This document shows, piece by piece, positions 1,099-28,626 of a DNA stretch of 38,880 nt. A program made the translations under genes and the position numbers. The stretch is from Desulfobulbaceae bacterium. Its GTDB lineage: Bacteria; Desulfobacterota; Desulfobulbia; Desulfobulbales; VMSU01. The DNA lies in the NCBI GenBank assembly GCA_013792005.1, contig VMSU01000093.1, positions 1 to 38,880 on the forward strand, given 5' to 3'. The notes below the pieces were generated by a model that worked only from the letters and a program-made list of their open reading frames with translations, was not told the DNA's origin and ran no database searches. Every line of letters begins with the position of its first letter. Position 1 is the first letter of the stretch.

Positions 1099-1800
1099 GT
1101 GCATAAACAAGGCATGGAGAGAACGATAGAAAACCAAACAACATGCCTATGCTGCGGAACCTGCTGCATCAAGGGCGGGCCAGCCCTTCACCAATCAGAC
1201 CTTCCACTCATTCATGAGCGACGGCTTGCCCTTGGCGACATGATCACCATTCGCCAAGGTGAGCCTGTCATCTCACCTCTCACCAACAGTGTGGAACCGG
1301 CACGTATTGAACTAATCAAACTTGTCGGTCATAACGATTCCTGGATCTGCCACTTTTTCGACAAAACAAAGAAGACGTGCGGAATCTATGCCCATCGGCC
1401 GCTCGAATGTAAGCTGCTGAAATGTTGGGATTCGTCGTCACTCACCAATATCATCTACCAACACTGTTTAAAACGCGAGGATATATTACAAGATGATGAA
1501 GAACTTTGGGAATTGATCTCATTGCAGGAAGAGCATTGCAGTTTTGCCAAAATCTCTCAACTTTCTACAAAATTTGCTGAAGTCAATGACCAAACTTTAC
1601 TGACAGAAATTGCCCAAATTGTTACTCTGGACTTCAGAATCAGACAAAAAGCTGTCCAAAAGCGGTCCTTAAGTCTAGCTTCAGAACTCCTCTATTTCGG
1701 CAGACCCCTATTCAAATCTCTGAAATTTTTCCAATTAACAATCAAGGAAGATCCATTTGGGGTTACAGTCATCCCTGCATCATTTGGGACGGAGCGATAA
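1099..1800 (+). CDS. YkgJ-family cysteine-cluster protein
   Basis: A 233-residue protein with the CxCCxxCC cluster near the N-terminus (CLCCGTCC, about residues 16-23), followed by CHFFD and then KTCGIYAHRPLECKLLKCW. This is the pattern of the YkgJ/PF03692 family, thought to chelate zinc or an iron-sulfur cluster. The biochemical role of the family is not established. The chosen start is GTG at 1099, because AAGGA lies about 8 bases upstream; an ATG at 1114 is possible. The C-terminal 100 residues are helical and lack further cysteines. Its 3' end overlaps by 21 bases the 3' end of the convergent gene on the other strand, so there is no room for a dedicated terminator. Confidence 0.8.
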   Translation: MHKQGMERTIENQTTCLCCGTCCIKGGPALHQSDLPLIHERRLALGDMITIRQGEPVISPLTNSVEPARIELIKLVGHNDSWICHFFDKTKKTCGIYAHRPLECKLLKCWDSSSLTNIIYQHCLKREDILQDDEELWELISLQEEHCSFAKISQLSTKFAEVNDQTLLTEIAQIVTLDFRIRQKAVQKRSLSLASELLYFGRPLFKSLKFFQLTIKEDPFGVTVIPASFGTER

Positions 1801-3726
1801 TTTTCCCTCGCGGGTGTTTAAATCCATACGGAAGCGGCTCAAATAGTTCATACCCAATAGACCAACGCCCGGTTGATCAGGAATATCGATAACCAAAGCG
1901 CTAACATTATTTTCCACCCAGCCTTCGATCTCCAATGTCTCAATCAGCACCTCGGTGGCCGATATCACTCCCCCTGCTGTTGACACTGAGTGGCTGTCCC
2001 AATGCCCTCCACGAACCGGTCGTAACCCTAAAGATTCAGCCGTAGCAGACGGGATTGTCACTAGTGAGGCCCCGGTATCCACTAGAAAACTTTGTCGAAT
2101 AGATTGATTCAACTCGGAAGTTACTGGAATCCGATTACTTCCTGCAACAAAACGGATCACAACCGTGCCTTCATCTCCCTTCAATTCCGAAATTTTTCGA
2201 GCGAGCAACTCATAACGATCCTGCATTGCTGCAGGGTACTCCATCATGCTTATCAGGCGCTCAGCTCCTTGCCAGTCCCCATTCAGCAAAGCTAACTCAA
2301 CCCCCAATAGATGAACGTATGGGTCATTTGGATAGTAGGCCTTAGCTTTGGCCAAAACTTGAGCCGCCTCGACAAGAGACTTAACAGTGACTAAGGATTG
2401 CAACCAGTCCTGATAGAGTTTAAGGTGCAGTTCATTGACTGCGGGCACATCAACGCCCCCCTTTTCAACAAGATCCTTGCCGAGGGTTTCAAGTTTTATA
2501 ATCGCAGGCTCAATCCCTTGAGTCGATGTGATCACAGGAATCAAGTCAAGCAAGAGTTTGATGTCGCCTATCTCTCGCAAGATATCATCGTTAAGGATAT
2601 CGACAAGTTGCGCCCCTTGACCTTGATGGATGAGTTCCTCAGCCAACTGTTTAAGTAACTTTCCAACAACATCTACCCGCAAGAAGTCGGGTGTGTCGTT
2701 CAACGGCAATTTGGGTTGCCGGGAAAATCCGTCAACAAGGGCTTTCAATCGCTCCAAGGAAGAATTGTTTGCTTTCATGGACAAGGCTAGAGCGAACTTT
2801 TCCTCTCTGCCATTAGCAAAAGTTTGATCATAGAAATTACGAACATCACTGTTTGCTACTATCCTGGAACCAACCGGGCCATTCCAGAGATACACGTTAT
2901 CAAGCCACGCACCAAAAGACCAGCCCACAATCGATTCTTGCTGAATGAACACCCCAAACTCTTTGATGTCCAGGGGTAATGGACAGACCACAAAATATCC
3001 TTGTCTACTGCCTGGCATTAATTGAATGTCTAATATCTCTTTTTGAGACTCAATACTCATCCAGGCTAAGGGAGCGTCAGCAACCCACTGAGCAAGAGAT
3101 GCCTCCCCCTCGTGCTCAGTAAACGAGGCTAACTGCCAAAGGCTGACCACCCTTCCCTTGTTCCAGATCCCTGAAGCAATCTCAGCAGTTGACCCATCAT
3201 CCCGGGAAACCGTCCACTGAGAGCCTCCATATAAAGCCCGAGTCGGCATGGCAATCCAGCCATTCCCCATCAAGGCGGCCTGAAGTTTAGCCATCTGACG
3301 TCCACCGGGTCCAATAATTGAGACCCAACCGGTCCTTAAAATCACCGATTTATCTTGTGCCGATTTTTGAACCTCTGTCTCGTTCGATAAAGGCTTAGCG
3401 TCAGAGGAAACGTCCTGCGGAGTATTGGCATCGTCTAAAACAGCTTTCAGTCGATCTGCCATCTCCTTCCGTTTACTGTTTTTCTTGTTTTGAACTTCCT
3501 CACGCTCAGCTGCAGAAAGTTCCGGTTTACTCTCATCATGCGTAAAGAGCGAATCACGAAATACAAAACCAAAGCCACTAATCCACAGACAAAACATTGC
3601 GAGAATCATCAAACGTTTTCTGTTACGAAAACGATCAACACGCCGTTGAAAGTGAAACGGAGCTCCGCATTGCACACAGTGACTCACAGCATCGTGATTA
3701 TCAGTTTTACATCTGACGCATCTCAC
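1780..3726 (-). CDS. membrane-anchored zinc-ribbon protein with degenerate trypsin-like region and C-terminal retropepsin-like aspartic protease
   Basis: A 648-residue multidomain protein starting at GTG 3726. Residues 1-22 form a zinc ribbon (Cys 3, 6, 17, 20). Residues 38-57 form one membrane helix. A charged linker leads to a region (about 130-290) that reads like a trypsin-fold domain in which the usual catalytic His and Ser motifs are absent (NGWIAMPTRAL in place of a TNAHV-type motif). A helical middle part with a TPR-like stretch (about 430-500) follows. The C-terminal about 130 residues form a retropepsin-like domain with DTGAS at 550-554, a hydrophobic flap region, and GLLGMNYL near the end. 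With one DTGA motif it would act as a homodimer. The helix places most of the protein outside the cytoplasm and the ribbon inside. It lies 178 bases downstream of the ParA gene on the same strand. Substrate unknown; the aspartic-protease assignment is solid, the pseudo-trypsin assignment is inference. Confidence 0.75.
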   Translation of the reverse strand: MRCVRCKTDNHDAVSHCVQCGAPFHFQRRVDRFRNRKRLMILAMFCLWISGFGFVFRDSLFTHDESKPELSAAEREEVQNKKNSKRKEMADRLKAVLDDANTPQDVSSDAKPLSNETEVQKSAQDKSVILRTGWVSIIGPGGRQMAKLQAALMGNGWIAMPTRALYGGSQWTVSRDDGSTAEIASGIWNKGRVVSLWQLASFTEHEGEASLAQWVADAPLAWMSIESQKEILDIQLMPGSRQGYFVVCPLPLDIKEFGVFIQQESIVGWSFGAWLDNVYLWNGPVGSRIVANSDVRNFYDQTFANGREEKFALALSMKANNSSLERLKALVDGFSRQPKLPLNDTPDFLRVDVVGKLLKQLAEELIHQGQGAQLVDILNDDILREIGDIKLLLDLIPVITSTQGIEPAIIKLETLGKDLVEKGGVDVPAVNELHLKLYQDWLQSLVTVKSLVEAAQVLAKAKAYYPNDPYVHLLGVELALLNGDWQGAERLISMMEYPAAMQDRYELLARKISELKGDEGTVVIRFVAGSNRIPVTSELNQSIRQSFLVDTGASLVTIPSATAESLGLRPVRGGHWDSHSVSTAGGVISATEVLIETLEIEGWVENNVSALVIDIPDQPGVGLLGMNYLSRFRMDLNTREGKLSLRPK

Positions 3727-3904
3727 CAGATCTCACCAAACACATTAATCCGTAAAATACTTTGATTACCGATCAGATAAGTAAACCACAAACCCTGAGC
3801 CTGTTTACAAGAGAAAAGAATACGATACGTTGGGTCGTTAAGAACAATCATCTGAGCAGTATTTTTCATAAACCATAGCCTAATGAAGCAATCAGTCACG
3901 AAAC

Positions 3905-4831
3905 TTATCGTAACAACTTATTATTGTTTGCTATTTTCCTGACCAACTCTCGGTAATCGCTCGCCCCTGGTGAACCTGGAGCAAATTCATAGATGCTGCG
4001 ACCATAGGCTGGGGCTTCGGACAGTCTGACATTGTAACGAATAGGAGAACAAACATTATTTCCATACAACTCCTTCAGTTTTTCTAAAATACCAATCGAT
4101 TTTTTAACCCTCATATCAAGAAAGGTTGGCAGGATGTATTTAAGAGCCACCTGAGGCCGATACTTTTGAATTGAGGCAATACTTTTTAAGAATTCAACCA
4201 ATCCCTGAATAGACATGACCTCAAGTGAAACCGGGGCCAGTATTTCAGTAACAAAAAATAGAATGTTAACTGTCAAAGGATCCCACCCAGGAGAGGTGTC
4301 AACGATAACATAATCAAAATCCTTGGTAGGCTCAGCCAAGGTTTCAGCCAGAGTCAATTCGCCGCCAAAATCCTTCCTGCCAATCAGTCGCTTGACCCCA
4401 GCAAGTGATTTTCCACCCCCAAGTAACCACAATCGTTCACGGACCTGGAGCATAGTCTCCTCAGGTCCCAGTTCTCCCAGAACTAACTCAGTAAGTCCAG
4501 CATTAGGTGTCACACCTAACATATAACTGGATTGTCCCTGGGTATCAGTGTCAATCAACAGCACTTTAAACCCGGCGAGAGACAAACCCATAGCAAGATT
4601 TACCGCTGTCGTCGTTTTCCCAACACCGCCTTTGCTCAACGAGACACTTATCTTCCTAGGCCCCTCTTTCTTCTTCACAGGAGGCGGCGCAACAATCGCA
4701 GCAGGCGATTCTGTCAAATCGAGAGGAAAATAATTGCCACAGAATTTGCACTTCGCTTTTTTAACATGAGCAGGGATGGCCTTTTCGTCAATATTGTGCT
4801 GTTTTTTGCAATGGGGACAAATTATAATCAT
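3905..4831 (-). CDS. ParA/MinD-type ATPase with N-terminal zinc ribbon
   Basis: A 308-residue protein. Residues 1-38 are a MJ0042-like zinc ribbon (Cys 5, 8, 28, 31), then a Pro-rich linker. Residues 58-308 are a ParA-type P-loop ATPase with the deviant Walker A KGGVGKTT (67-74), the switch I region IDTDTQGQSS and Walker B VIVDTSP. Such ATPases form dynamic gradients on nucleoid or membrane to position a cargo. A chromosomal ParA would normally lie with a ParB; none is here. Instead the preceding genes encode a ribbon-helix-helix-like protein and a PilZ protein, suggesting an orphan positioning system. The start is ATG 4831 with AAGGAG about 10 bases upstream. The zinc-ribbon fusion is not typical of plasmid ParA. 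Confidence 0.85.
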   Translation of the reverse strand: MIIICPHCKKQHNIDEKAIPAHVKKAKCKFCGNYFPLDLTESPAAIVAPPPVKKKEGPRKISVSLSKGGVGKTTTAVNLAMGLSLAGFKVLLIDTDTQGQSSYMLGVTPNAGLTELVLGELGPEETMLQVRERLWLLGGGKSLAGVKRLIGRKDFGGELTLAETLAEPTKDFDYVIVDTSPGWDPLTVNILFFVTEILAPVSLEVMSIQGLVEFLKSIASIQKYRPQVALKYILPTFLDMRVKKSIGILEKLKELYGNNVCSPIRYNVRLSEAPAYGRSIYEFAPGSPGASDYRELVRKIANNNKLLR

Positions 4832-4882
4832 CGCATCGATACTCCTTAATATTCAGTCTCGGATTCCTCGAGCAATCAAACT

Positions 4883-5278
4883 CTACGACTTCTCGTGATT
4901 TTTTTTAAGCAATTCACGAATCAAGGCGCTATCCTTGCCTTTCTCCACAAACTCATGCAGCACCACAGTGATAGCACTCTCGACAATTCTGGATTTACTC
5001 GCCTTAGATTTCGAATTGGCAGGGAGGAAATCACGAATATCTTCCTTGGCCTCACCCAGATTGTCAAACACCTCTTTAGTCAGATAGTGAGTAGTTTTAT
5101 GCTTCTTCCCCTGACGATTTTTTTTCTTTGCCTTTGGAGATTTCGCTAACGGTTTATTTTGTAAAGCATTCGAATCCATATGAGTCAATTTCATCAACTC
5201 TTCGATTCCACGAACCATACTTGATGAAGAATCATTTAATATGTCACCCAGAATATCGAATTTCTTATTTTCACTCAT
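4883..5278 (-). CDS. small basic protein with ribbon-helix-helix-like C-terminus, ParA partner candidate
   Basis: 131 residues from ATG 5278 (MSENKKFDIL...). A longer frame exists upstream but would run into the PilZ gene, and a weak AGGAT lies just before ATG 5278, so I chose this start. Residues about 45-70 are very Lys-rich (KAKKKNRQGKKHK). Then TTHYLTKEVFDNL, a helix, and KSRIVESAITVVLHEFVEKG follow, which fits the strand-helix-helix pattern of ribbon-helix-helix DNA-binding proteins such as ParG/CopG-type partners of ParA. It sits between the PilZ gene (15 bases upstream) and the ParA gene (51 bases downstream) in one direction. The likely role, by inference, is a DNA-binding or ATPase-stimulating adaptor for the ParA protein. 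Confidence 0.65.
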   Translation of the reverse strand: MSENKKFDILGDILNDSSSSMVRGIEELMKLTHMDSNALQNKPLAKSPKAKKKNRQGKKHKTTHYLTKEVFDNLGEAKEDIRDFLPANSKSKASKSRIVESAITVVLHEFVEKGKDSALIRELLKKNHEKS

Positions 5279-5292
5279 AGCAGATAATCCTA

Positions 5293-5730
5293 TCAAGGTA
5301 CAAAAAGGGAACTGCGACTCTTCTGCAGATAACGGATAATGGCATCCTGGCATTCATTGGAAATCGATATCAGTTCAATTCCACAGAGATCATGAATCCC
5401 GTCATTAGATAAATGCATCACCACCCCATCAGTTGAAAATGAGTGCCCCCCAATGGTAAGCAATATTCCCTGAAACTGAGCAAGGCTCTTCATCTCACCA
5501 GAATGATTGAGGTAGATACCAACGCCACGTTCGCTCAGATTAAATACAACGTAATGATTGCCGTTAATAGTTAACGAAATCTGCTCCTGTTCACCAACCG
5601 GGGTACGGAAACCATGCCGCAAGATTTGCTCAAGCGTCACATGGATTTCAGGGGAACCATCAGAGGTTTTTTCCTCCTGAAAATTATCGTCAGCGTCAAA
5701 CTCAAGGCCATGCCCATATTTTATATCCAT
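5293..5730 (-). CDS. PilZ-domain protein
   Basis: 145 residues from ATG 5730, preceded by a near-perfect AAAGGAGGA ribosome binding site (5736-5744, minus strand), which decides this start over an ATG 21 bases further out. The centre carries a PilZ-like pattern: an Arg-containing segment (HGFRTPVGEQEQISLTI), a strand with YVVFNLSERGVGIYL matching the (D/N)xSxxG box, then a second strand pair ending HDLCGIELISIS. PilZ domains bind c-di-GMP through RxxxR and (D/N)xSxxG. The second box is clear but the RxxxR box is reduced to one Arg, so binding is uncertain. It is the first gene of a three-gene run with the RHH-like and ParA genes. Confidence 0.75.
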   Translation of the reverse strand: MDIKYGHGLEFDADDNFQEEKTSDGSPEIHVTLEQILRHGFRTPVGEQEQISLTINGNHYVVFNLSERGVGIYLNHSGEMKSLAQFQGILLTIGGHSFSTDGVVMHLSNDGIHDLCGIELISISNECQDAIIRYLQKSRSSLFVP

Positions 5731-5751
5731 GCCAATCCTCCTTTGCCTCAA

Positions 5752-6072
5752 TCCACAACATTTCTTATATCATTAAATGATGTAACGTATTCGATGTCAA
5801 TCGCTAACTACTAAATATCCCAGAATGATACGGTTGCTAGAAAACGTATCTCAAAAACAACGTTATAGAAATACTGTATCTGATCACAGGGTAGGGACTT
5901 TCACCCCATTAGTTCACGCCCGTACCGGGCGTACACCAGTGCATACAGCGGAACGCCGGGAAGCACTGTTTTTTTGTTCATCTACAATGGCGGCGTCCAC
6001 TGATGCTTGGCGTTCAGCTCTCAATTTAATATTCCTATTGACGAATGACGTATCTCGTCATGTCATATAGCT
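5752..6072. other. non-coding stretch between PilZ run and higBA
   Basis: No credible gene is seen. A GC-richer block at about 5905-5975 includes the small palindrome GCCCGTACCGGGC and contrasts with AT-rich flanks. It may be the scar of an older insertion. The divergent promoters of the PilZ run and of higBA must lie here, but I cannot place -35/-10 boxes with confidence. Confidence 0.35.
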
Positions 6073-6357
6073 ATGATCAAATCCTTCAAATGCAAAGATA
6101 CGGAAAAGCTTTTTGACGATTTGGATGTAAAAAAATTCAGAAGTTTTTCTAGGACAGCAAGAATAAAACTTGAAGTTCTGAATGCAGCTATTTCTTTGCA
6201 AAGTTTGCGAATTCCCCCTGGGAATAGGCTTGAGCAGTTAAAAGGCGATAGAAGCGGACAGCACAGCATTAGGATTAACGACCAGTGGCGTATTTGTTTC
6301 GTATGGTCGGCAGAAAACGTCTTCGACGTAGAAATTGTTGATTATTACAAGGGGTAG
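6073..6357 (+). CDS. higB: HigB-type toxin (RelE/ParE superfamily mRNA interferase)
   Basis: 94 residues, the usual length for HigB (plasmid maintenance killer family, PF05015). Diagnostic stretches are MIKSFKCKDTEKLF at the N-terminus, RLEQLKGDRSGQHSIRIND in the middle and the strand QWRICFVWS, ending in VEIVDYYKG. HigB toxins cleave ribosome-bound mRNA. The stop codon is 4 bases before the antitoxin start, and the toxin-first order is typical of higBA. Transcription is expected to be repressed by the HigA protein binding upstream of this gene. Confidence 0.9.
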   Translation: MIKSFKCKDTEKLFDDLDVKKFRSFSRTARIKLEVLNAAISLQSLRIPPGNRLEQLKGDRSGQHSIRINDQWRICFVWSAENVFDVEIVDYYKG

Positions 6358-6361
6358 AATT

Positions 6362-6688
6362 ATGGCAACCAAACTAACTCCAATCACTCCGGGCGATGTA
6401 TTATTGGAAGAATTTCTTAAGCCAATGGAAATCACTCAAAACCAGTTAGCAAAAGACATTAATGTCCCTGCAAACCGGGTAAGTCAAATTATCCATGGCA
6501 AAAGAGAAATTACTGCTGATACTGCGTTACGTCTCGGTAAGTATTTTGGTATTGAGCCGGAATTTTGGCTCAACCTTCAGGTACGGTACAATATGAAAAT
6601 AGCTAAAAGTAAAGTGGGCAAGTTAATTGATAGAGAAGTTAAAAATCACTTTTCTCAAACTAACCATCGCAATCTTTCGTCCACATAA
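6362..6688 (+). CDS. higA: HigA-type antitoxin (XRE family helix-turn-helix)
   Basis: 108 residues from ATG 6362. Residues about 7-75 form the XRE helix-turn-helix typical of HigA (TPGDVLLEEFLKPMEITQNQ, then VPANRVSQIIHGKREIT and ALRLGKYFGIEPEFWLNLQ). It neutralises HigB and autoregulates the operon. The start at 6362 is favoured over an upstream ATG at 6335 that would overlap higB, since HigA proteins normally begin close to the PGDVL motif. The C-terminus (NHFSQTNHRNLSST) is a little unlike relatives and may have been altered by the junction with the decayed sequence that follows. Confidence 0.9.
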   Translation: MATKLTPITPGDVLLEEFLKPMEITQNQLAKDINVPANRVSQIIHGKREITADTALRLGKYFGIEPEFWLNLQVRYNMKIAKSKVGKLIDREVKNHFSQTNHRNLSST

Positions 6689-7374: not shown

Positions 7375-8232
7375 ATGGCAAAGAAAGCGTTACTTGTTGG
7401 AATCAATGACTACAAAGGAATCAGTGACCTGCGCGGGTGCATCAACGATGTTACTAACATGCGGGATATCCTGAAGACCTATCTCGGCTTTACCAACAGA
7501 GATATCCGCGTCTTGGTAGACAGTCGTGCAACCAAAGCGAATATCGTTTCCCGGCTCCAGACTATGGTGAGCACTGCCAAATCAGGCGATTTTTTGGTGT
7601 TTCATTTTTCCGGCCATGGCTCCCAGATCCGTGATCGCAATGGCGATGAATTGGAAGACCAGATGGATGAACTCATCTGCCCCTATGATATGGACTGGGA
7701 CGGCACCTTTATTACCGACGACTCTCTCAACAGCATTTTCAGCAAACTGCCCAAAGGCGTGCTGCTTGAAGTTTTTCTGGATAGCTGCCACTCTGGCACC
7801 GGTCTCCGTGATATTAACTTTGGACGTCCGGCAAATTTAGGACCGGAACACACCACCCTGGATCGGTTCCTTGCTCCACCCGCAGACATTGAATGCCGCC
7901 TTGAAGGAGAGGAAGATGATCTAAAGTCCCCGCGAAGCTTCAGAAGCGCCAATCGCAGCACAGTCCACCACATCCTCTGGGCCGGCTGCAAAGACAACCA
8001 GACCTCGGCAGATGCTTTCATCAACAACAGTTACAATGGGGCCTTCACCTACTTTTTCTGTAAACATATGCGTGCCAGCGGCGGCACTCTTTCCCGCAAA
8101 GAACTGCTGAGCCGGGTGAGACAATCTCTCAGGAACGACGGCTATTCCCAAATCCCGCAACTCGAATGCGAAGCGACGGTTCGCAACGCTCGCAGCCTGA
8201 CCGCTACCGAAAAGGCCAAAAGCAAAAAATGA
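7375..8232 (+). CDS. metacaspase/orthocaspase (peptidase family C14)
   Basis: 285 residues with a complete caspase-like p20 core: LLVGINDYKG at the N-terminus, catalytic His81 in FHFSGHGSQ, the acidic substrate-pocket loop DELEDQMDELICPYD, and catalytic Cys138 in FLDSCHSGT. The family cleaves after Arg or Lys, often needs calcium, and in prokaryotes is linked to stress responses and programmed death. There is no signal peptide, pro-domain or fused effector or sensor, so it is a minimal cytoplasmic form. The acidic insert EGEEDDL (about 178-184) lies where the p20-p10 linker is expected. AGAGGAG precedes the ATG by about 8 bases and a terminator follows the stop, so it is a single-gene unit. 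No dedicated partner is evident next to it. Confidence 0.9.
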   Translation: MAKKALLVGINDYKGISDLRGCINDVTNMRDILKTYLGFTNRDIRVLVDSRATKANIVSRLQTMVSTAKSGDFLVFHFSGHGSQIRDRNGDELEDQMDELICPYDMDWDGTFITDDSLNSIFSKLPKGVLLEVFLDSCHSGTGLRDINFGRPANLGPEHTTLDRFLAPPADIECRLEGEEDDLKSPRSFRSANRSTVHHILWAGCKDNQTSADAFINNSYNGAFTYFFCKHMRASGGTLSRKELLSRVRQSLRNDGYSQIPQLECEATVRNARSLTATEKAKSKK

Positions 8233-16431: not shown

Positions 16432-18006
16432 ATGACAAACCCGGCTCATCAAGAAAAATCCCAGTTGCTCGGGGCAGAGGCACAGTCTGCCTTTGAACAG
16501 GGAGCTGGACGCCATCTGATCACCAGCCGCAACCGTCAACTAGGGTCGCTCCTGAGCTCGGAACGCGGCATCTATTACACCCAAATTCTCTACCGCATGC
16601 TTATGTTCAAGCGCGAGCATGAGCTGGAACCTCTCTACGAGGACATCTTCCAGGCAGTACGACCGGCTCAAAATACCATTGAATCCGGTGACTACACCAG
16701 CCAGCAATTCCGAACCGACATGGCTCAATTAGCGGAATGGGATCTGGTTCACTTCAGGATTGAAAAGGAACGGTTGCGTGGGTATCGCGACAACCGCAAG
16801 AGGAAATTCCGCTACACTCTGACCGATGAATGCGCTCGCTTCATTGAGTGGCTGGAAAGCCGTCTGGCCGACGACTTGGAAGAGCGTGGCCATGACACCC
16901 GCGACCTGCTGCAGGAGGTCTGCGGCTCCTTGAACGAATTGCTCCGCCTGCTCCATCATCTCCGCCGGGATGACGATTCACAGGGAGATTCCGCCCGTCG
17001 GATCATTTTCCAACTCTTTAAGATTGAAGACTTGACCCGCGCCATTACCGCCGGTCTCATTGAATTCAATGGTCGGCTCCTACAGTTTATCATTCAGAGC
17101 TATAACATTGCCGAAATCAAGGCCATCATCAGTGAACTCGATACATATGTCCACAGTTTCCTGAGCCAGGTCTATGCCCTACGGCGAGAGATCATCCCCC
17201 TCATCACTCGCTTGCAGCAAGAACAAAACCAGAACAAGCTTGACCTGTGTACCCGAATCATGGAGGCTGAGCGCTTGCGCTCCCCACATCTTTTACAGGG
17301 CATGAGGGAAGCGGCACGAGTTGGCATCGTTGCCGGGTTGCACTCCTTTTATATCGAGAACGGCAAACTGGATCAACTCCATCAACGCATCGGCGCCTCA
17401 GTCCTCAAAGTCTGGCAGAAACTCCGCAGCCACCTGCGGGAACTGGAACGTAAAAACAATCGCCTCCAGGATCTGCAAAGCCGGATCAATGAGATTACCA
17501 CGCTCCCTGAAGATCATGCTCCTCAAGCCTTTATGGCCAACCTCTTGGCCCCGGCCCATCGCTACAGCGACCCACATTACTGGGATGAACATGAAAAGGC
17601 ATCACCCCCGGAACCTCGCCGCCGAGTGAGTATGAAAGAGGCTGTAAAACATAGCTATCTCCCCCGCAAACAGCAGGCCGACCGACCGGTGCAATCCATG
17701 GATGAAGCACGACTTACAGATATGGCCACATGGCTTGCCCAAGCAATCATGCGTGGAAGTTCCGACCAGGCCAAGGTCTCACAGGGCCAATTTATCGACT
17801 ACAGCGATCTCCGCAAAGTAATGGACCTTGCCCAGGCTGGCTACCTCGACAACGGCAGACGGCTCGACCGCATCGATTACCAACTTACCGATGATAGCGA
17901 TGTTATTCATCTCACGGCCGGTGAGCAGGCCTTGAGTCTCCGAGAGATTATCGTTCAACAAAAATCACCCGCTTTAACAGGAAACAAGTTATGGAATCCA
18001 AATTAG
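16432..18006 (+). CDS. JetA-like kleisin-type subunit of an SMC (Wadjet/MukBEF-like) system
   Basis: 524 residues, first gene of a four-gene overlapping operon. Residues about 40-140 look like a winged helix (SSERGIYYTQILYRML, FRTDMAQLAEWDLVHF, RKRKFRYTLTDEC). Long helices and a coiled-coil-like middle (about 200-370) follow, then a small C-terminal domain (FIDYSDLRKVMDLAQAGYL). This matches a MukF/JetA-type kleisin that bridges the SMC-like heads. The call rests mainly on operon context (KITE-like, SMC-like and Toprim genes follow) and length. I cannot assign the Wadjet subtype; the N-terminus also recalls DUF2397 proteins. The start ATG has no Shine-Dalgarno sequence and directly follows a repeat. 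Its 3' end overlaps jetB by 16 bases. Confidence 0.7.
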   Translation: MTNPAHQEKSQLLGAEAQSAFEQGAGRHLITSRNRQLGSLLSSERGIYYTQILYRMLMFKREHELEPLYEDIFQAVRPAQNTIESGDYTSQQFRTDMAQLAEWDLVHFRIEKERLRGYRDNRKRKFRYTLTDECARFIEWLESRLADDLEERGHDTRDLLQEVCGSLNELLRLLHHLRRDDDSQGDSARRIIFQLFKIEDLTRAITAGLIEFNGRLLQFIIQSYNIAEIKAIISELDTYVHSFLSQVYALRREIIPLITRLQQEQNQNKLDLCTRIMEAERLRSPHLLQGMREAARVGIVAGLHSFYIENGKLDQLHQRIGASVLKVWQKLRSHLRELERKNNRLQDLQSRINEITTLPEDHAPQAFMANLLAPAHRYSDPHYWDEHEKASPPEPRRRVSMKEAVKHSYLPRKQQADRPVQSMDEARLTDMATWLAQAIMRGSSDQAKVSQGQFIDYSDLRKVMDLAQAGYLDNGRRLDRIDYQLTDDSDVIHLTAGEQALSLREIIVQQKSPALTGNKLWNPN

Positions 18007-18650
18007 CCGGTCTGCTGGAGCGTAGTGGCGACAAGGTCCGCGCGGTGCTCAACATCATGATGGAGAGCCCCTATTTTTACTGCGATGATAATCCCGACCT
18101 CTTTTTTTTCTTAAAAAGACACCGTCAGGAATTTACTGAATTTTTCGAGATTTTTTACAACTGGTCCCTGCTGATGGACAGTAAATGCGCCCGGGCTTAC
18201 AAAACCGAGTGGCACAACACCGCTATTGCCCCAAGCGCCCGAACCCTGTTCTCCTTCACCAAGCGGGATGAGTGCCTGGCCTTCATGATAATCCTTGAGT
18301 TCTACGAACACCAACTGGAAGAGAACGGCATGACCGTGGAGGACAAGGAGAATCTACGTTTTCGCTTCGGAGACCTGCTGATCCATGCCCAGCGTCGTTT
18401 TGCCCTCTGTTTTCCTGATAAGGCCAGCCAGTATTCAGAAGAGTATGTCCGGGCCAAAATCCTCAAGCCTATCCTGCCGGAACTAGAACGATACCGCTTT
18501 CTCAAACGGATTGATCCACCCGATGATCTCAGCGCCAGCGACGACGATATGATCTACGAAGCCTTACCCGCCATCTACCATTACAACGCCAATGCCTTGA
18601 GCCGGATTATTCCTGAGCTACAACAACAGACTGAGGTTCCGGCCGAATGA
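17991..18650 (+). CDS. JetB-like KITE-type subunit (MukE analogue)
   Basis: 219 residues, second gene of the operon. It overlaps jetA by 16 bases and jetC by 4 (ATGA), indicating translational coupling. The protein is helical, with the phrases FFLKRHRQEFTEFFEIFYNW, FSFTKRDECLAFMIILEFYE and a C-terminal segment IYEALPAIYHYN. The size and position between the kleisin-like and ATPase genes match JetB/MukE, a winged-helix KITE protein that binds the kleisin. I see no catalytic motif and expect a structural role. The family call is contextual. Confidence 0.65.
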   Translation: MESKLAGLLERSGDKVRAVLNIMMESPYFYCDDNPDLFFFLKRHRQEFTEFFEIFYNWSLLMDSKCARAYKTEWHNTAIAPSARTLFSFTKRDECLAFMIILEFYEHQLEENGMTVEDKENLRFRFGDLLIHAQRRFALCFPDKASQYSEEYVRAKILKPILPELERYRFLKRIDPPDDLSASDDDMIYEALPAIYHYNANALSRIIPELQQQTEVPAE

Positions 18651-20896
18651 CCCCGCCAACCCCTTATCAGATCACCCGCATCAGGCTGATCAATTTCCAC
18701 AATTTTGTCGATGAGACCATCGACCTTGCCCATGGCGGCCATCTCTTCCTGCTGGGCGATAACGGTTGTGGCAAAACCACTATCCTTGACGCCATCCACT
18801 ATGTGTTAACTGTCGGCCAGTCCCTGGAATGGAACGCCGCCGCACGGGTCGCAGGATCAAAACGGGAAGGCCGCCGAATCCAGGGCATTGTCATGCGCTA
18901 CAACCTCGATTGCGGGGCCATCAACCGCGATGGCGGCATCACCTATGCCCTACTCGAAATAGAGGGTCGCCATGGCCTCCCACTCACTGTCGGCATGGGC
19001 ATCTCAACCTCAGCGATGGATGAGCGGATAAAACAATGGGGGATTATCCGCGAATGCCCCATTGCGGACATCCCGCTGCTGATTGAAGACGAACAGGGTC
19101 GTCGCCCTGCCGATCGCCTTGAACTCAAGGAACTTCTCAAACAAAAGGGCGGGTTCCACGGTGAACCCAAATCCTACCAGCATGAATTGGCTCGCCGGTT
19201 GTTTGGAGGAGAGGAGAATTTTCAGGAGGTTTGTCGATTCCTGGCCATGGGCAAAGCCTACCGGGAAATTGCCTCACAGTCCGCAGATTACCATGAATTG
19301 TTCAAGAGTTTGCTGCCGGAACCAAAAACCGAAATCTTCGAACGGATCATCGACGCCTTACGTACCCTGGACCAATCAAAATCCATCCTGGATGATCTGG
19401 AAAGAAAACTGCATTATCTTAAAAGCTTGCAGAGTTTCACGCTGAATATCGCAGCCGACAGTGAGGCATCGATACGCTACCAATGGCTTTCGTGGCTGAT
19501 GCGAGAAACTTTTTCCAAAAACTCGATCGAGACATTGCGTCAACAGATAGCCAGTCGCCAACAAGAAATGGCCCAACTCATAGCATCAAGACAACAGGAG
19601 GAAGAGACTGAAGCGTCCTTACGCACACGACTCGACGACCTGATGACCAAAGATTCTGCCGGCTTGGTTCGCCAGGAAAAAGAAGGGCGTGAGGAGTTGA
19701 GCAGAAAAGAACGAACCCTGGCCAAAAAAAAGAAAGAGTGCCAGAACCTTAGCAAAATTCAACAGGCCAGCACACGAAAGCAGGCCGAACAGCACCACAC
19801 CTTGGTCCGCCAAGTATCCGGTCTGCATAGTGAATTAGGTCAAGGCGCAAGCCTTCTACCTTTCTCCATCTCCCAACTACTGACAACACTGGACACGATA
19901 GGACGCTCTGAGGAGATAATTACTCAGGCCTTGGATTTTGGCGTCCAAGAGTTTTCCAACCTGGTGTCTGACACTCGAGATCAAGAACTCCGTCAACTGA
20001 CCCTTCTTGAACAAGAGGGCGAAACCATATCCAATACCATAACGGATCTCACCACCGAGTGCCACAGGCTTCGCGCCATGGACGAAGCGCAACCCATCCT
20101 CCCCGGCTGGACCGACTGCCTCGCTGCAATGCGCACCGGAATGCTCAACCCCCGCCCCCTTTATTCCGGCCTGGAGTGGCGTCCTGGACTCTCTCGTCAA
20201 GAACAAGAGACCATTGAAGAGTCAATCGGCCAAGAGATCGCCGCCACCTTGGTGCTTAGCGATCCCGAGTTTGAAGCGGGCCGCGGGATCGCTATTCTCT
20301 GGCCAGGAATCAGAATCAGCTGTCCCGGTCGAGGACTTGACTCCTTACCGGACTGGATGCGCACGGCCTTTGACCTGACTCAATCGAATCCCACCTGCTT
20401 ACGCTGCCTGGCCGCTGAAATGCAGTGTGATTTCGGACCGCTGGTTAGTGTCGTCAATAATCGTAGGGTATTAAGCTTCCGCAGTCATGACCGCGGCCTG
20501 CTCGGCAACCCGGCCCGACTTATCGGCGAGAATAGCCGCAGGGAGGCTATCAAGGCCGAGATCAAAGGTCGTGAAGACGAATTACGTCAATGGTCGCGGC
20601 AACAGACAGAACTTAACCGGCGCCTCAAAACCATCCGCGAGACTGTGGAGCGCCTGGACAACTTTACAGTAAAGCTTAGCACTGGGATCAATAGCATCCA
20701 GCAGACAGCACGACTAGCCTCCGAGTGCAGCCAGAAATTAACTCAAGATAACGCCCTGCTTACTCTCCACAACCGCCAGCACGAAGAACTTGCCCGAGAA
20801 ACCACCCTCTTATCTACACGAATCCAAGACCTGACTCATCTCATCTCATCCAACAGGAGGGACTGGCTTCCTTGGAGGGCAAGATCAGTCAATTAA
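18647..20896 (+). CDS. JetC-like SMC-type ATPase, N-terminal part (frame broken)
   Basis: 749 residues. The N-terminus is an SMC/RecN/MukB-type ATPase half: RIRLINFHNFVDETI, then Walker A GDNGCGKT (37-44) and ILDAIHYVLT. Long coiled coils start at about residue 290 (for example QEMAQLIASRQQEEETEASL) with a hinge-like globular section near 480-660. The Walker B and signature motifs are absent here and are found in the next reading frame (20872-22113). The break is at a CTCAT triplet array at 20835-20849; removing one unit joins both parts into one 1153-residue protein with continuous heptads. After the array this frame runs 15 aberrant codons to a stop at 20894-20896. In Wadjet systems JetC is the DNA-loop-extruding motor. 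As sequenced, only a truncated protein would be made. Confidence 0.8.
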   Translation: MTPPTPYQITRIRLINFHNFVDETIDLAHGGHLFLLGDNGCGKTTILDAIHYVLTVGQSLEWNAAARVAGSKREGRRIQGIVMRYNLDCGAINRDGGITYALLEIEGRHGLPLTVGMGISTSAMDERIKQWGIIRECPIADIPLLIEDEQGRRPADRLELKELLKQKGGFHGEPKSYQHELARRLFGGEENFQEVCRFLAMGKAYREIASQSADYHELFKSLLPEPKTEIFERIIDALRTLDQSKSILDDLERKLHYLKSLQSFTLNIAADSEASIRYQWLSWLMRETFSKNSIETLRQQIASRQQEMAQLIASRQQEEETEASLRTRLDDLMTKDSAGLVRQEKEGREELSRKERTLAKKKKECQNLSKIQQASTRKQAEQHHTLVRQVSGLHSELGQGASLLPFSISQLLTTLDTIGRSEEIITQALDFGVQEFSNLVSDTRDQELRQLTLLEQEGETISNTITDLTTECHRLRAMDEAQPILPGWTDCLAAMRTGMLNPRPLYSGLEWRPGLSRQEQETIEESIGQEIAATLVLSDPEFEAGRGIAILWPGIRISCPGRGLDSLPDWMRTAFDLTQSNPTCLRCLAAEMQCDFGPLVSVVNNRRVLSFRSHDRGLLGNPARLIGENSRREAIKAEIKGREDELRQWSRQQTELNRRLKTIRETVERLDNFTVKLSTGINSIQQTARLASECSQKLTQDNALLTLHNRQHEELARETTLLSTRIQDLTHLISSNRRDWLPWRARSVN
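20835..20849 (+). repeat. three tandem CTCAT units causing the jetC frameshift
   Basis: CTCAT occurs at 20835-20839, 20840-20844 and 20845-20849. With two units the reading is THLIQQEGLASLEGKISQL, in frame from the N-terminal part into the C-terminal part. Three units shift the frame. Gain or loss of 5-base units by slipped-strand mispairing is a known route to on/off switching. Confidence 0.75.
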
Positions 20897-22113
20897 CAAC
20901 CAAACTCAAACGACAACGAGAAGCGATCAGTCGAATCGACACCCGGCTAGGAGGGGCCGAGACCGAGCAGCGGAACGACAACGATGCCATCAACCGCAAG
21001 GAAGCGGAGCAAAGTGACGCAGAAATTCAGCGAAATGCCTGCGCCGAACAATTGCATACCTTGATTCCTGAGCTTATCGATATCGACCATTATGTCCTGC
21101 GCACCAAGAAGGGCATGCAGTTTAAAACCCTGGAGTCGGTGCAAAAAGAGCAAGAGGGGTGTAACAGGTCCATTCATGAAAACCGAATCCGCCTTCGGGA
21201 GCGATTAAACGATCCTGAGTTCGGCGCAGCCTTCCGCTTCCAGTATGAGGAGAAAGACAACGAGGTCCTAGATTTCCGGGGGAGAAAACTTAACGAAATC
21301 GTCACTCACTTAGGGGGCGAAATCAATGAGCAACATGAAATTATCAACGAACGGACTAAGGACCTGTTCAAAAAAATCATCATGACCGAATTGGTCAATT
21401 ACCTAAGGGCTCACGTCAGCCAACTTGACCAGATGATCCGCACCATCCGCAACAAGCTTGACCAGCGCACCTTTGGTAATCAGCGCTACCGCTTCCGGAT
21501 CAAGCCGCTGGAAAAATACAGTCGACTGGTGGCGGTAATCAACAAATTCAGCCCCTTTGACCCGGCAGCAGAAGAGGAATTGCGGCATTTTTTTGAAGAC
21601 CACAGACAGGAGATCATCAACACCGAGGTCGGGAATATTCCAGAAGAGCTGGATTACCGGAACTGGTACCGCTACGAAATGGAAGTAACAGCGACCGGCG
21701 ATCACGGAGTGGTCATGGATCGGAGAAATAAGAGCATCGGCTCCGGCGGCGAACAGGCAGTGCCCAATTACCTGTTGGTGCTAACTATCGCCCATTTTCT
21801 CTACCACGGCAAGAAGGTGAAACTCCATACCCTGCTCTTTGACGAGGCCTTCTACGGCATCGATGCCGGTCGCCGCGACCAACTCTTGGGCTTTGCCACC
21901 GACCTCGGGCTGCAACTCTTCGTGGCCTCACCAGATCAAGATGGTGTGCGCCGCGAAATCAGCTATTCCACCACTATCCTGGTCAAGAAGGACACTAACT
22001 TCGATATCCATCTCTACCCGTATCATTGGCAGAATCCCGATAACGTTAGACAGATCGATCTCTTTGCGCAACCACAGGACCCTGAACCGATTGAGTTCGG
22101 GGAGGAACTGTAG
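20872..22113 (+). CDS. JetC-like SMC-type ATPase, C-terminal part
   Basis: 413 residues in the -1 frame relative to the upstream part. The frame may begin at TTG 20872, and AGGAGGG at 20855-20861 sits 10 bases before it, so independent translation is conceivable. It begins in coiled coil (EGKISQLTTKLKRQREAI) and ends in the second ATPase half: the ABC-type signature region KSIGSGGEQA (287-296), Walker B TLLFDEAF (320-327), and a D-loop/H-loop region FVASPDQDG. These complete the composite ATPase begun at 18647. The stop TAG is immediately followed by the jetD start. The genuine gene is almost certainly the fusion of both parts, as in all SMC-like ATPases. Confidence 0.8.
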   Translation: MEGKISQLTTKLKRQREAISRIDTRLGGAETEQRNDNDAINRKEAEQSDAEIQRNACAEQLHTLIPELIDIDHYVLRTKKGMQFKTLESVQKEQEGCNRSIHENRIRLRERLNDPEFGAAFRFQYEEKDNEVLDFRGRKLNEIVTHLGGEINEQHEIINERTKDLFKKIIMTELVNYLRAHVSQLDQMIRTIRNKLDQRTFGNQRYRFRIKPLEKYSRLVAVINKFSPFDPAAEEELRHFFEDHRQEIINTEVGNIPEELDYRNWYRYEMEVTATGDHGVVMDRRNKSIGSGGEQAVPNYLLVLTIAHFLYHGKKVKLHTLLFDEAFYGIDAGRRDQLLGFATDLGLQLFVASPDQDGVRREISYSTTILVKKDTNFDIHLYPYHWQNPDNVRQIDLFAQPQDPEPIEFGEEL

Positions 22114-23358
22114 ATGACACGAGTCATCAAAGAACTTCTTAGGCAGTATCCCTGCCTCCGGCCATACCTGGAAAAGATCTGCCAACGAGTCGATAAACAG
22201 GGCGAACTGAAAGGAGTCATGAAGGTCGGGCAGAGTCTGAACAGGGAGGATTTGGCAGCTCTCAAGGCCTTTTTTGGCTTGCGGGCATTGTCCCTGTCGC
22301 GGACTGGGGAAGTACGGCTGAACTGGACACGATTCTTTGAAGGAAAAACTGAGTCTGGGGTCAAGGAATGGGTCAGTGCTCTTTTCCACGCCCTTGATCT
22401 TCCCAGAGATGACCACAGACAAAAGACACAATCCGAAATCCAGGCGGCAACACTTCTTGTCGAAAGACTGCGTTTGGCCTATCCGGAACTACACGATATC
22501 CACCAGTACCTTATCAAAACTCTGCCAACCCTGGCCAGACAGATCGCCCGTCACGGAGAAATGGCAGTAGCACGTTCATTTCACGCTGCGGAAATCATCC
22601 ACTTCCTCCGTCAAAACCAAGATCCATTGACTTTCTCCGAACTTGGCGCCCGTTTCCTGAACGACTCCAAAACCCTGCGCGACACAGAACTGAGCCGACT
22701 CATTGCCTCTTGGCTGATCATCCAGGAAGAGACCGAGGATGGTTCATGGCAAGAGTCCGCATCAGCATTATGGGAACGATACCACATAGTTCGTGACCGC
22801 TTGGCAGTGCAAGCCACCATCTTTGGCCCCTTGCTCTATCAAAAGGATAACCAGACCTATGACTGGATTTTTCGTCTCTGGCAAAATAACGAACCGGCCA
22901 CCCTTTCCTGGCCCAATATCGCAGGCATAACACGACTCTGGCTAGCGCCAGGCCATGAAGATAAGAATGAGTTGATCACCATTGAGAATGAAACCCCTTT
23001 TACCCGTCTGATCAGAGAACGTCATCCCGGCACCCTGCTCTACACCGCAGGTTTCCCCAACGACGGAGTAACAGCACTCTACCGACTCCTCGACCAAGAT
23101 CATCGCCGCCACTGGGGAGACAGTGACCTTGCCGGCCTCAGGATTGCCGCTATTCTCAACACCATTCGACCGTTGCGCCTCTGGCGATGTGACCAAAAAA
23201 CGCTTCAACGCCACGACATCCAACTGATTCCGCTACAGGAGAATCAAGCCAGACAGATTACAGACTTCCTCACCAGGCACCCGGACTTCCCCTTTACACT
23301 CGAACTCCAATTCACTTTGGATCATGGCTGGCTGGAGCAGGAAAGTTGGCAGCTGTAA
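22114..23358 (+). CDS. JetD-like Toprim-domain nuclease subunit
   Basis: 414 residues, last gene of the operon. The start ATG touches the jetC stop codon, with GGGGAGGAA a few bases upstream. The N-terminal 220 residues are helical with winged-helix-like parts. The C-terminal about 130 residues fit a Toprim fold: ELITIENETPF with the first acidic residue (Glu291 or Glu293), LLYTAGFPNDGVTALYRLL, and the paired acids in HWGDSDLAGLRIA (Asp336, Asp338). In Wadjet, JetD is the nuclease that cuts plasmid DNA trapped by the JetABC motor. The DUF2399/DUF2220-like C-terminus is my reading from motifs, not a database result. Confidence 0.75.
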   Translation: MTRVIKELLRQYPCLRPYLEKICQRVDKQGELKGVMKVGQSLNREDLAALKAFFGLRALSLSRTGEVRLNWTRFFEGKTESGVKEWVSALFHALDLPRDDHRQKTQSEIQAATLLVERLRLAYPELHDIHQYLIKTLPTLARQIARHGEMAVARSFHAAEIIHFLRQNQDPLTFSELGARFLNDSKTLRDTELSRLIASWLIIQEETEDGSWQESASALWERYHIVRDRLAVQATIFGPLLYQKDNQTYDWIFRLWQNNEPATLSWPNIAGITRLWLAPGHEDKNELITIENETPFTRLIRERHPGTLLYTAGFPNDGVTALYRLLDQDHRRHWGDSDLAGLRIAAILNTIRPLRLWRCDQKTLQRHDIQLIPLQENQARQITDFLTRHPDFPFTLELQFTLDHGWLEQESWQL

Positions 23359-25611: not shown

Positions 25612-28600
25612 ATGTCAACCTTTCCCATCGAACATCGTCTGCTATTGAAACCATGGTTTGCCAACCAGACCCTGCAGCAAGCAGAGATCGAAATGGCCAA
25701 GGCCCAAGCGCCTGAGATAATCGTTTACCGTCACTCAGCCGCAGCTATCTTTGCCGACGAGCAGGGGTGGTGTCTGATCAAATTTCAAGTGGCCCCTCAG
25801 TTGAGCCAAGGATTTCGACCCGTCGCTGCAGTCTGCTCACGATGCAATCTTACCCGTCAGAATGGCGATCTTTGCTCCCATCTTGCCACCTTGTGCTCAC
25901 AGGTCATGGTGGCAGTATCAGAACAGATTCTCCCTCTCCCTTTGACCTTCGGCTCGAGCCGTTGGGCGGCAATTGCCAGGTTTCTCAATCAACACGACGA
26001 GAGGCTCAGTATTTCCACCCGCCCGAATCATCTGCATCTGACTAACAACTCCCTGACGATGCGAGGTATGCTGGCTAATGATGATCTGGAACTAGCCAGA
26101 CGTCTTTTTCCGGAAAAGGGCTGGTCCGTACCAATCGAGGTCAGAAATGAGCACGATTCAATTCTCCAGCAAACATGGCGACGTCTCCATCAACTAGAAC
26201 GGACAGATTCTGAGATATCCCTTAATCAGTGTGGCACAACAAGCCAAGGTCAGCGTCTGGCAAGAAGCCTGTGGACCTTTTTGTGTCAGACCTTTTGCCG
26301 CTTAGCCACATCCCCCACTTGGCGGCTGGAGCGAGACCACGAGGGAGAGTTTTCCTTGTTTGCCGATTCTCCTTCGCATCAGGAAATCTTTAAGATAACT
26401 CCATCCCGTGAACTCCTCCTCGACTTCCTGCAGCAGATCAATCTCTTTGACCTGATCACCAAGACCGCTCCGGCAAGGGCATACTCAAAAATATTCTTTT
26501 CTCCAGAGTCTGGTGACTTAATCATCGAACCTTGGCTGGAGCTTGCCGACGGGTCCCGTCTTCGCCGCGAGTCAATTAAAAACACCCGCTTCGGCAGGAA
26601 CTACTCACTGAACAACACGATATTTTTCACGGTAACTGAGCAAGGACATGATTTCAATGACCATGCCGACAGTGCCTTCCCGCTGTTTACTATCGCTCAA
26701 CCACAAAACTACCAGACACTCGTTATTGCCGCCACCGATGTGCCGGATTTTGTCAAAAAACACCACACCTTCATGCTCCAGGGAGGCCATGACCTTGATC
26801 CGGCACTGCTCAATTTTTCACTAACCGACCTACCGGACACCCTTGAAATTGTCAATTATCGTGAGGATGGAAATTGGTGCTTGCTTGATGCCAGATATGG
26901 ATTTGGATCCAACCGGATTGAACTTACAGAAATCATTCGCTTACGACGAGAAGGGGCCAGACATATCGCTGGCCGTGACACCTGGCTCCAGATTGACTAT
27001 ACCCCTTTAAGCTGGATGTATGGACTGGGACCGGAACGGCTCGAGTCTGTCGGCAAACGGACAGTTATTCGGTTAACCAAGCGAGAGATGATGGCAATAA
27101 CCGCTCTGGTGCCAGAGATCATCTATCCAGAGAGAGAAGATTTCCGCGCCATTATTCGCCGGCGTATAACATCTGAGATACCCGACACCCTGCTTGATGC
27201 AGAGATACCACCGCACCTTCGAACCTATCAACGTCAAGGACTGGCCTGGCTTCACCACTTGCAAGATAATGGAGTAGGCGGAGTGCTCGCCGATGACATG
27301 GGCCTGGGAAAGACCCATCAAGCACTGGCCCTGCTGGCACTGTTGGCAAAAGAGAAAGGATTCCGGACATTGGTAATCTGTCCCGCCTCGGTTTTACCCC
27401 ATTGGCAGGACAAGGCCGCTACCTTCTACAGCGACTTGAACCTGAAGGTATATTACGGAGCCACCCGATCAGAGAGTGAACTTGACAGCCCGGCCATTCT
27501 CTTGACTACCTACGGCCTGATGCGCCAAGATATTGAGCTGATCAAAAACAAACATTTTCAGGTGGTAATCTTTGACGAAATCCAAAATCTGAAAAATAAA
27601 CAAACTGCAACCCACCAAGCCGCCAAGCAGATACGAGCCGAAGTAGCTTATGGTTTGACCGGAACCCCGATAGAGAACTCCCTCACCGATCTGAAGGCCA
27701 TCTGTGACCTGTGCGTACCCGGCCTGCTCGGTTCAGATGCCTCATTTCAGTCGATTTATGCCGACCCTATTACCTCAGGCAGCAACACCCATCGAATTGA
27801 CTCGCTCAAACGCATGGTCGGCCCTTTTATGCTCCGGCGAGTCAAGGAACAGGTGCTTACCGAACTCCCAGAGGTGATCGAAGATATCCGCACCTGTGAA
27901 CTGAGCGATGACCAGATTGCCCTCTACCGCCGTGTCATTGACAACGACGGTCACGATCTGCTCTCCTCGCTAGAAAATTCCCCCACACCAGTGATTCCTT
28001 ATATGAAATTTCTGGCTGTGGTCCAGGAACTCAAGCAGATATGCAATCACCCCTGTCAAATTTTGGGAAACACTGACTACCAGAACTATCGCAGCGGCAA
28101 ATGGGATCTCTTTGTTGAGATATTACACGAATGCCTGGACGCAAGTCTGAAAGTAGTTGTCTTTAGCCAATACACCAAAATGCTCAATATTGTGGAAGCT
28201 TATCTAAAATCAGAAGATATCCCCTACGCCGGGATTCGAGGGAATATGGCGCTAAAGACGCGCCGCAAGATGATCGACCAATTCAACAACGATCAGACAA
28301 CAAGAATCTTTTGTGCCAGTCTGCTAGCCGGGGGGACCGGCATTGATCTAACCTCGGCTCAGGTCGTTATTCACTACGACCGATGGTGGAACGCAGCCCG
28401 TGAAGAACAGGCTACCGCCAGGGTACACCGTATGGGACAAAAACATGTAGTGCAGGTATTCAAGTTCATCAGCCAGGGAACTATGGAAGAGAAAATCCAC
28501 CGCCTGATAAATCGCAAAAAAGATTTGGTAGACGATGTTATTCAGACAGACGACGAATCGTTTGTCAAGCGACTTACCAAGGAAGATTTACGGGAACTCC

Positions 28601-28626
28601 TTCGTTGGGAGCAAACAAGTATCTAA
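25612..28626 (+). CDS. SWIM zinc-finger SNF2-family helicase-like ATPase
   Basis: 1004 residues. A SWIM-like zinc site lies near the N-terminus (Cys75, Cys78, Cys88, His90). About 400 residues of uncharacterised beta-rich sequence follow, then a full SNF2 motor: motif I DDMGLGKT (561-568), motif II DEIQ (655-658), motif III LTGTPIENS, and motif VI ARVHRMGQKH (about 937-946) in the second RecA lobe. The family translocates on double-stranded DNA and remodels protein-DNA complexes; bacterial members resemble HepA/RapA. SNF2/SWIM genes are common in defence islands and this one follows the MNT-HEPN pair and intron, but no known multi-gene system with it is recognisable. The ATG 25612 lacks a clear ribosome binding site. 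Probably monocistronic. Confidence 0.85.
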   Translation: MSTFPIEHRLLLKPWFANQTLQQAEIEMAKAQAPEIIVYRHSAAAIFADEQGWCLIKFQVAPQLSQGFRPVAAVCSRCNLTRQNGDLCSHLATLCSQVMVAVSEQILPLPLTFGSSRWAAIARFLNQHDERLSISTRPNHLHLTNNSLTMRGMLANDDLELARRLFPEKGWSVPIEVRNEHDSILQQTWRRLHQLERTDSEISLNQCGTTSQGQRLARSLWTFLCQTFCRLATSPTWRLERDHEGEFSLFADSPSHQEIFKITPSRELLLDFLQQINLFDLITKTAPARAYSKIFFSPESGDLIIEPWLELADGSRLRRESIKNTRFGRNYSLNNTIFFTVTEQGHDFNDHADSAFPLFTIAQPQNYQTLVIAATDVPDFVKKHHTFMLQGGHDLDPALLNFSLTDLPDTLEIVNYREDGNWCLLDARYGFGSNRIELTEIIRLRREGARHIAGRDTWLQIDYTPLSWMYGLGPERLESVGKRTVIRLTKREMMAITALVPEIIYPEREDFRAIIRRRITSEIPDTLLDAEIPPHLRTYQRQGLAWLHHLQDNGVGGVLADDMGLGKTHQALALLALLAKEKGFRTLVICPASVLPHWQDKAATFYSDLNLKVYYGATRSESELDSPAILLTTYGLMRQDIELIKNKHFQVVIFDEIQNLKNKQTATHQAAKQIRAEVAYGLTGTPIENSLTDLKAICDLCVPGLLGSDASFQSIYADPITSGSNTHRIDSLKRMVGPFMLRRVKEQVLTELPEVIEDIRTCELSDDQIALYRRVIDNDGHDLLSSLENSPTPVIPYMKFLAVVQELKQICNHPCQILGNTDYQNYRSGKWDLFVEILHECLDASLKVVVFSQYTKMLNIVEAYLKSEDIPYAGIRGNMALKTRRKMIDQFNNDQTTRIFCASLLAGGTGIDLTSAQVVIHYDRWWNAAREEQATARVHRMGQKHVVQVFKFISQGTMEEKIHRLINRKKDLVDDVIQTDDESFVKRLTKEDLRELLRWEQTSI

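Follow-up and report, generated by a model that had tools for sequence, protein, structure and literature searches.

What does a ParA ATPase do when it is encoded together with a PilZ domain protein? ParA ATPases act in DNA segregation and in the placement of organelles, and signal input into them is little known; we know of no earlier partition-type ParA that would receive a cyclic-dinucleotide signal through a PilZ subunit of its own. The question is raised by a 38,880-nucleotide stretch of Desulfobulbaceae DNA (contig VMSU01000093.1; hereafter the window), in which three genes encode a PilZ domain protein (P0001), a small middle protein (P0002), and a ParA ATPase that carries a zinc ribbon of its own (P0003) (Table 1). 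A sequence-only reading of the window had proposed these three genes on one strand, with gaps of 15 and 51 nt. All three were found in place on the minus strand, and the 51-nt gap between the middle gene and the ParA gene agreed, while that between the PilZ and middle genes is 14 nt. The interpretation that we favor is a chromosomal ParA switch that is gated by c-di-GMP and has its ancestry in plasmid partition, with the cargo left uncommitted; we give it about an even chance of being right.

Table 1. Features of the window and of related loci (where a locus handle is given, the positions are those of that locus)
Feature	Position	Strand	Size	Basis or remark
PilZ-middle-ParA trio	3905-5730	-		
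PilZ domain protein P0001	5293-5730	-	145 aa	Pfam PF07238, predicted fold, motif alignment
Middle protein P0002, RHH-like	4883-5278	-	131 aa	Family alignment, RHH_3 in some relatives, motif counts
ParA ATPase P0003, N-terminal CxxC..CxxC zinc ribbon	3905-4831	-	308 aa	Pfam AAA_31, CbiA, Zn_ribbon_4
ATCATTAAATGAT palindrome, putative operator	5769-5781	n/a		38 nt ahead of the PilZ start
Zinc-ribbon and retropepsin-like aspartyl protease	1780-3726	-		Next gene downstream of the trio; PF13650, 62 bits
Small toxin-antitoxin-looking pair	6073-6688			Inspection of the sequence
Caspase-like protease	7375-8232	+		PADLOC caspase, 76.9 bits
Wadjet-like JetA, JetB, JetC, JetD cluster	16432-23358	+		
SNF2-type helicase	25612-28626	+	1004 aa	Close to DpdE/ZorD models, 365 bits
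Middle protein with AAA+ domain, L070	6995-8275			
Motif-bearing protein, L172	1429-1791			
Gene after ParA, Rhabdochlamydia plasmids L182 and L183	3234-3641			
Paralogous zinc-ribbon ParA near CheC, L257	1424-3442			
Paralogous zinc-ribbon ParA near CheC, L258	2498-4533			

The PilZ-middle-ParA trio is a real conserved unit. A search with the middle protein matched 42 of the 116 genomes of the order, the window's own included. Among the first 40 of the 41 other matching genomes (G096 was added later), 39 carry the three genes on one strand in the order PilZ, middle gene, ParA, and at the fortieth locus (L057) the middle gene is the first on its contig. With a ParA profile, the trio ParA subfamily was detected in 60 of the 116 genomes, and 42 of these 60 (G015 and G096 among them) have the full trio. 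The remaining loci comprise the middle gene with ParA where the contig ends (one, G104), a truncated middle gene together with PilZ and ParA (two, G025 and G061), PilZ and ParA with no recognizable middle gene (five, G016, G018, G041, G075, and G112, the gap in G016 being 524 nt), ParA without either partner (six, G004, G010, G023, G069, G084, and G100), and four in which the upstream side is off the contig (G014, G040, G060, and G070). Of the 55 loci whose upstream side can be seen, 49 have PilZ as the neighbor and 42 have the full middle gene; a full middle gene without PilZ was seen at none, and PilZ without a full middle gene at seven. These counts indicate that the link between ParA and PilZ is the tighter one, and PilZ, which the sequence-only reading had tied to ParA, remains the partner where the middle gene is lost. 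Conservation in other genomes, which that reading had named beforehand as a test that could refute it, was thus borne out by the 42 full trios at 55 visible loci of the order and by trios in other families.

The gene order is invariably PilZ, RHH-like gene, ParA, whereas the flanking genes vary between families. The aspartyl protease gene follows the trio at all seven loci of the window's own family and at none of 34 other loci, and because it accompanies the trio in that family only, we place it outside the core unit. In a phylum sample of 395 genomes (members of the order included), 19 have the ParA at an E value of 1e-60 or better and 15 have a middle-protein match; the whole trio occurs in two other families of the phylum, f84 (five genomes) and f103 (two genomes), and another genome (G418) has PilZ, a 50-aa ORF, and then ParA. 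The matches listed also include two metagenome-assembled genomes labeled Proteobacteria (L079) and Oceanospirillales (L080), which carry PilZ, a middle gene, and a ribbon ParA in the same order; the RHH part of these two middle genes is barely recognizable and their N-terminal motif is intact. A scan of a genome collection with generic ParA patterns (KGGVGKTT) returned at least 78 ordinary ParAs and at least two of the trio subfamily.

The assignment of P0001 to the PilZ family is supported by sequence and by predicted structure. It scores 23.4 bits against PF07238, above the Pfam cut-off of 22.5, and its AlphaFold2 model (mean pLDDT 70.6, pTM 0.64) is a six-stranded beta barrel (strands within residues 51-120) followed by a C-terminal helix (125-142). 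The top 47 Foldseek matches to this model in the PDB are PilZ proteins, many of them solved with c-di-GMP, counting among them BcsA/cellulose synthase entries that we take to be PilZ-containing. The PilZ-like domain proposed from the sequence alone therefore also stands on structural grounds. Both halves of the c-di-GMP motif are present in P0001, RxxxR as R38HGFR42 and NxSxxG as NLSERG, together with an N-terminal acidic stretch (GLEFDADD). In the order-level alignment, both Arg residues of RxxxR, the [DN] position, and the Gly are each kept in 40/40 rows, and the Ser of [DN]xSxxG is kept in only nine, being lost in 31 (replaced by Gly in 22). Among nine PilZ proteins examined from outside the order (L164, L165, L168, L170, L196, L197, L198, L079, and L080), RxxxR is present in all and the Ser in eight, with Cys in its place in L079. 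This pattern looks like an ancestral c-di-GMP site that was relaxed in some lineages, and the loss of the Ser in 31 rows suggests that c-di-GMP binding may not be universal.

The middle protein was more difficult to classify. P0002 consists of an N-terminal DILGDIL segment, a Lys-rich linker, and a C-terminal RHH-like region (approximately residues 57-115). It has no RHH or other Pfam match itself, and RHH_3 is matched by five of 24 members of its family (best E value 3.7e-4). Its AlphaFold2 model, built on a three-row alignment, contains helices only and is of low confidence (pLDDT 58), and a PDB profile search with the family for an RHH relative of solved structure returned chance matches only. 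With no match of its own, RHH_3 in 5/24 relatives, and a low-confidence model, we term the protein RHH-like and no more, on weak profile evidence; the sequence-only description of it as an RHH-like protein is thus supported in part. The middle protein is probably a DNA-binding adaptor.

P0003 matches AAA_31 (109 bits), CbiA, and Zn_ribbon_4 (44.2 bits, cut-off 30.3). The four Cys residues are invariant in 41/41 aligned rows, which confirms the ribbon predicted for this ParA; the ParA of G004 has none. The deviant Walker A motif SKGGVGKTT is intact, and K67, K72, D94, and D178 (Walker A/B) are invariant in 25/25 rows. We constructed a ParA tree from 51 trio-subfamily rows (one genome occurring twice), three plasmid ParAs, and 45 Soj-type ParAs taken from the 78 ordinary ParAs that the genome-collection scan listed. 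The trio-type and plasmid ParAs form one clade against the 45 Soj-type ParAs (support 100/100). A separate clade of trio ParAs apart from the plasmid ones was not retained (support 46/0), and long branches are flagged in the tree. In the ATPase part, the identity is 51% to the ParAs of two Candidatus Rhabdochlamydia plasmids and 44% to that of paDPRO of Pseudodesulfovibrio profundus. The profile of the trio middle proteins detects the small gene after each of these three ParAs (31, 30, and 26 bits), and the best unlinked ORF reaches 9.8 bits among 8831 sequences when two matches of the phylum search that were set apart, L172 (34.9 bits) and L173 (25.3 bits), are excluded. Compared as profiles, the middle proteins and the plasmid partners gave an hhalign probability of 97.2%. 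The best reading of these similarities is that the ParA and the middle protein share ancestry with plasmid-type pairs of ParA and RHH partner and are now chromosomal.

This shared ancestry of both proteins would also be expected if the locus were a leftover, domesticated plasmid par cassette that segregates some DNA and in which PilZ is merely co-transcribed. We consider that very improbable, because PilZ outlasts the full middle gene at seven of the 55 loci and is never absent from loci with the full middle gene, and because all five genomes tested encode a canonical ParB elsewhere. Furthermore, plasmid ParA-RHH partition systems characteristically have a centromere array, whereas no direct-repeat array was found beside the window trio (5725-6080 and 3700-3910), and P0002 matched none of 72,556 plasmid records. 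The Rhabdochlamydia and paDPRO pairs resemble the trio in their ParA clade and in a partner that matches the middle-protein profile; they differ in that no zinc ribbon and no PilZ gene was seen at these three closest plasmid ParAs, which upholds, for the plasmids examined, the earlier claim that a PilZ companion is foreign to such systems. They differ as well in that their partner comes after ParA, whereas the partner gene precedes ParA in all trios and the plasmid order was not encountered. Type Ib par systems (ParF-ParG, delta-omega) and archaeal SegAB combine a ParA lacking an N-terminal HTH with a small RHH partner, and to our knowledge neither has a PilZ protein or a zinc ribbon.

The best-kept part of the middle protein is its N-terminal motif, D[IV][LM]xx[IL]L. 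The pattern D[IVR][LM]xx[ILVA][LM] occurs near the N terminus in 39 of 41 middle proteins of the order (the other two carry the close variants NILDDLL and SIMNEIM) and in all nine from outside it, against a background of 2/514 other ORFs within the first 40 residues. Both Rhabdochlamydia plasmid partners bear it as PDIMSSLM. In family f29, which has ribbon-less relatives of this ParA with long C-terminal extensions (L199, L202, L259, L260, and L261), the next protein starts with PDIMGEAL in 5/5 cases, and in L261, the one that was scanned, it is an IstB-like ATPase. The motif was first seen in the trio family and the pattern was written after viewing the f29 and Rhabdochlamydia sequences; the f29 count is therefore an observation, not a blind test. 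In one genome, the middle protein of L070 has a full sigma-54 activator AAA+ domain (PF00158, 157.7 bits) inserted between the motif and the RHH-like end. The simplest reading of these cases is that the segment serves as a docking motif for this ParA clade, ahead of exchangeable effectors. L172, which lies in G418 on a contig other than the one with the PilZ-ParA pair, encodes a protein with the motif as DILEDLM and no RHH.

The L070 protein bears on a different function for the trio. In Pseudomonas FleQ-FleN, a ParA-family ATPase works with a c-di-GMP-linked transcription factor, and there the AAA+ protein itself binds c-di-GMP. By analogy, the RHH-like protein may act as a transcription factor, with ParA as its co-regulator or antagonist, c-di-GMP entering through PilZ, and no positioning involved. 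In L070, the RHH-like region occupies the place of the DNA-binding domain of sigma-54 activators, and the activator domain in this one homolog puts transcription control on a par with positioning in plausibility. Compared by description rather than by sequence, the two systems differ in that the trio has a separate PilZ protein and most middle proteins have no AAA+ domain. Palindromes point the same way in one genus, where they overlap the promoter upstream of PilZ, with TTGGCAATGCCAA in the -35/-10 spacer. Transcription control is thus a serious rival and ranks next after the switch that we favor, but it seems fairly unlikely to us, since the AAA+ domain within the middle protein was found in one genome only, the ParA falls in the plasmid-partition clade, and the second exact copies of TTGGCAATGCCAA precede hisD-like genes in the three genomes examined (G050, G071, and G086) and do not make up a regulon; these copies, which we had considered as regulon sites, are probably unrelated repeats. 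In the window, ATCATTAAATGAT lies upstream of PilZ (chance expectation 0.18 per window, with up to one mismatch allowed) and is possibly an operator, and a search for a palindrome common to the whole order upstream of PilZ found none.

The sequence-only reading had put forward a second-messenger input to the positioning of a chromosome, pilus, or chemoreceptor cargo. In line with it, the trio could position a chemotaxis, flagellar, or pilus cargo, for which the middle protein would be the adaptor. Two findings agree with this. FliG is encoded in 55 of the 60 ParA-positive and 37 of the 56 ParA-negative genomes (Fisher p 0.001, ignoring phylogeny), and in G043 and G076 the CheC-like gene of a PAS-CheY-CheC cluster is followed, after 32-33 bp, by a paralogous zinc-ribbon ParA gene. 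However, the Walker A motif of this CheC-linked paralog is altered (NKVGMGKT), five flagellum-less genomes keep the trio ParA, and the type IV pilus protein PilM is present in 114 of the 116 genomes, which makes pilus co-occurrence uninformative. No cargo gene was found consistently adjoining the trio, the flanks differing between families, and flanking genes were dropped as a clue to cargo because neighbors change from family to family. Taken with the points in its favor, we regard this dedicated positioning function as rather improbable.

The c-di-GMP-gated ParA switch builds on gene identities, gene order, the ancestry shared with plasmid ParA pairs, and motif conservation, all of which the data show. 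Speaking against it are the six visible loci at which ParA has neither partner, the loss of the PilZ Ser in many rows, the weak RHH assignment, and the lack of a repeat array beside the window trio. From the points in its favor we infer the protein contacts, c-di-GMP binding, and output of the trio as follows. ParA would cycle between a DNA-bound ATP dimer and ADP states, and the middle protein would dock on it through the N-terminal D[IV][LM]xx[IL]L motif, thereby bringing in an effector, normally an RHH DNA-binding domain. PilZ, encoded by the first gene and presumably co-expressed, would bind c-di-GMP and act on ParA, probably directly, given that PilZ and ParA stay paired at loci that have lost the middle gene. 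The output may be the nucleoid location of bound DNA or cargo, or the availability of the RHH protein at DNA sites. The conserved trio thus points to control of a ParA machine by a second messenger. A wider version, which we put forward tentatively and would not expect to hold in full, is a ParA machine gated by a second messenger and fitted with a plug-in adaptor: the ParA clade would read the motif ahead of an RHH domain, an RHH domain with a sigma-54 AAA+ domain, or an IstB-like AAA+ protein, and the zinc ribbon and PilZ would have conferred a c-di-GMP response in one branch.

The literature searched, which held few subscription papers, yielded no description of a PilZ-ParA operon. The closest published parallel to the trio that it contained is CdbA/CdbS of Myxococcus xanthus (PMC7156744, PMC10313047), in which CdbA is an RHH, c-di-GMP-binding nucleoid protein and CdbS a stand-alone PilZ protein. 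As in the trio, RHH and PilZ proteins are tied there to c-di-GMP and, according to these sources, to chromosome organization. Unlike the trio, cdbS is in no operon and no linked ParA appears in the portions available; CdbA itself binds c-di-GMP and is described there as only 67 aa long, compared with the 131-aa middle protein of the window.

A conserved operon of a ParA and a probable c-di-GMP receptor makes signal input into ParA testable with three small soluble proteins, and the recurring N-terminal motif leads to a concrete prediction for the exchange of ParA partners. A candidate partner gene also emerges from the plasmid relatives for chlamydial plasmids, which lack parB according to PMC7846284: the gene after ParA on the Rhabdochlamydia plasmids encodes an RHH-like protein that looks like a ParB-type partner.

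Some minor observations were made on the position of the trio and on the rest of the window. Among three near-closed genomes (G013, G071, and G472), the trio and the canonical parB sit on roughly opposite sides in two (1.32 of at most 1.55 Mb and 2.06 of at most 2.25 Mb) and are 0.45 of 1.4 Mb apart, not opposite, in the third; three genomes are too few for these distances to carry meaning. In the window, the toxin-antitoxin-looking pair is located near the caspase-like protease gene. JetC of the Wadjet-like cluster is represented by two overlapping ORFs (749 and 413 aa) instead of one, which reflects either a broken gene or a sequencing error.
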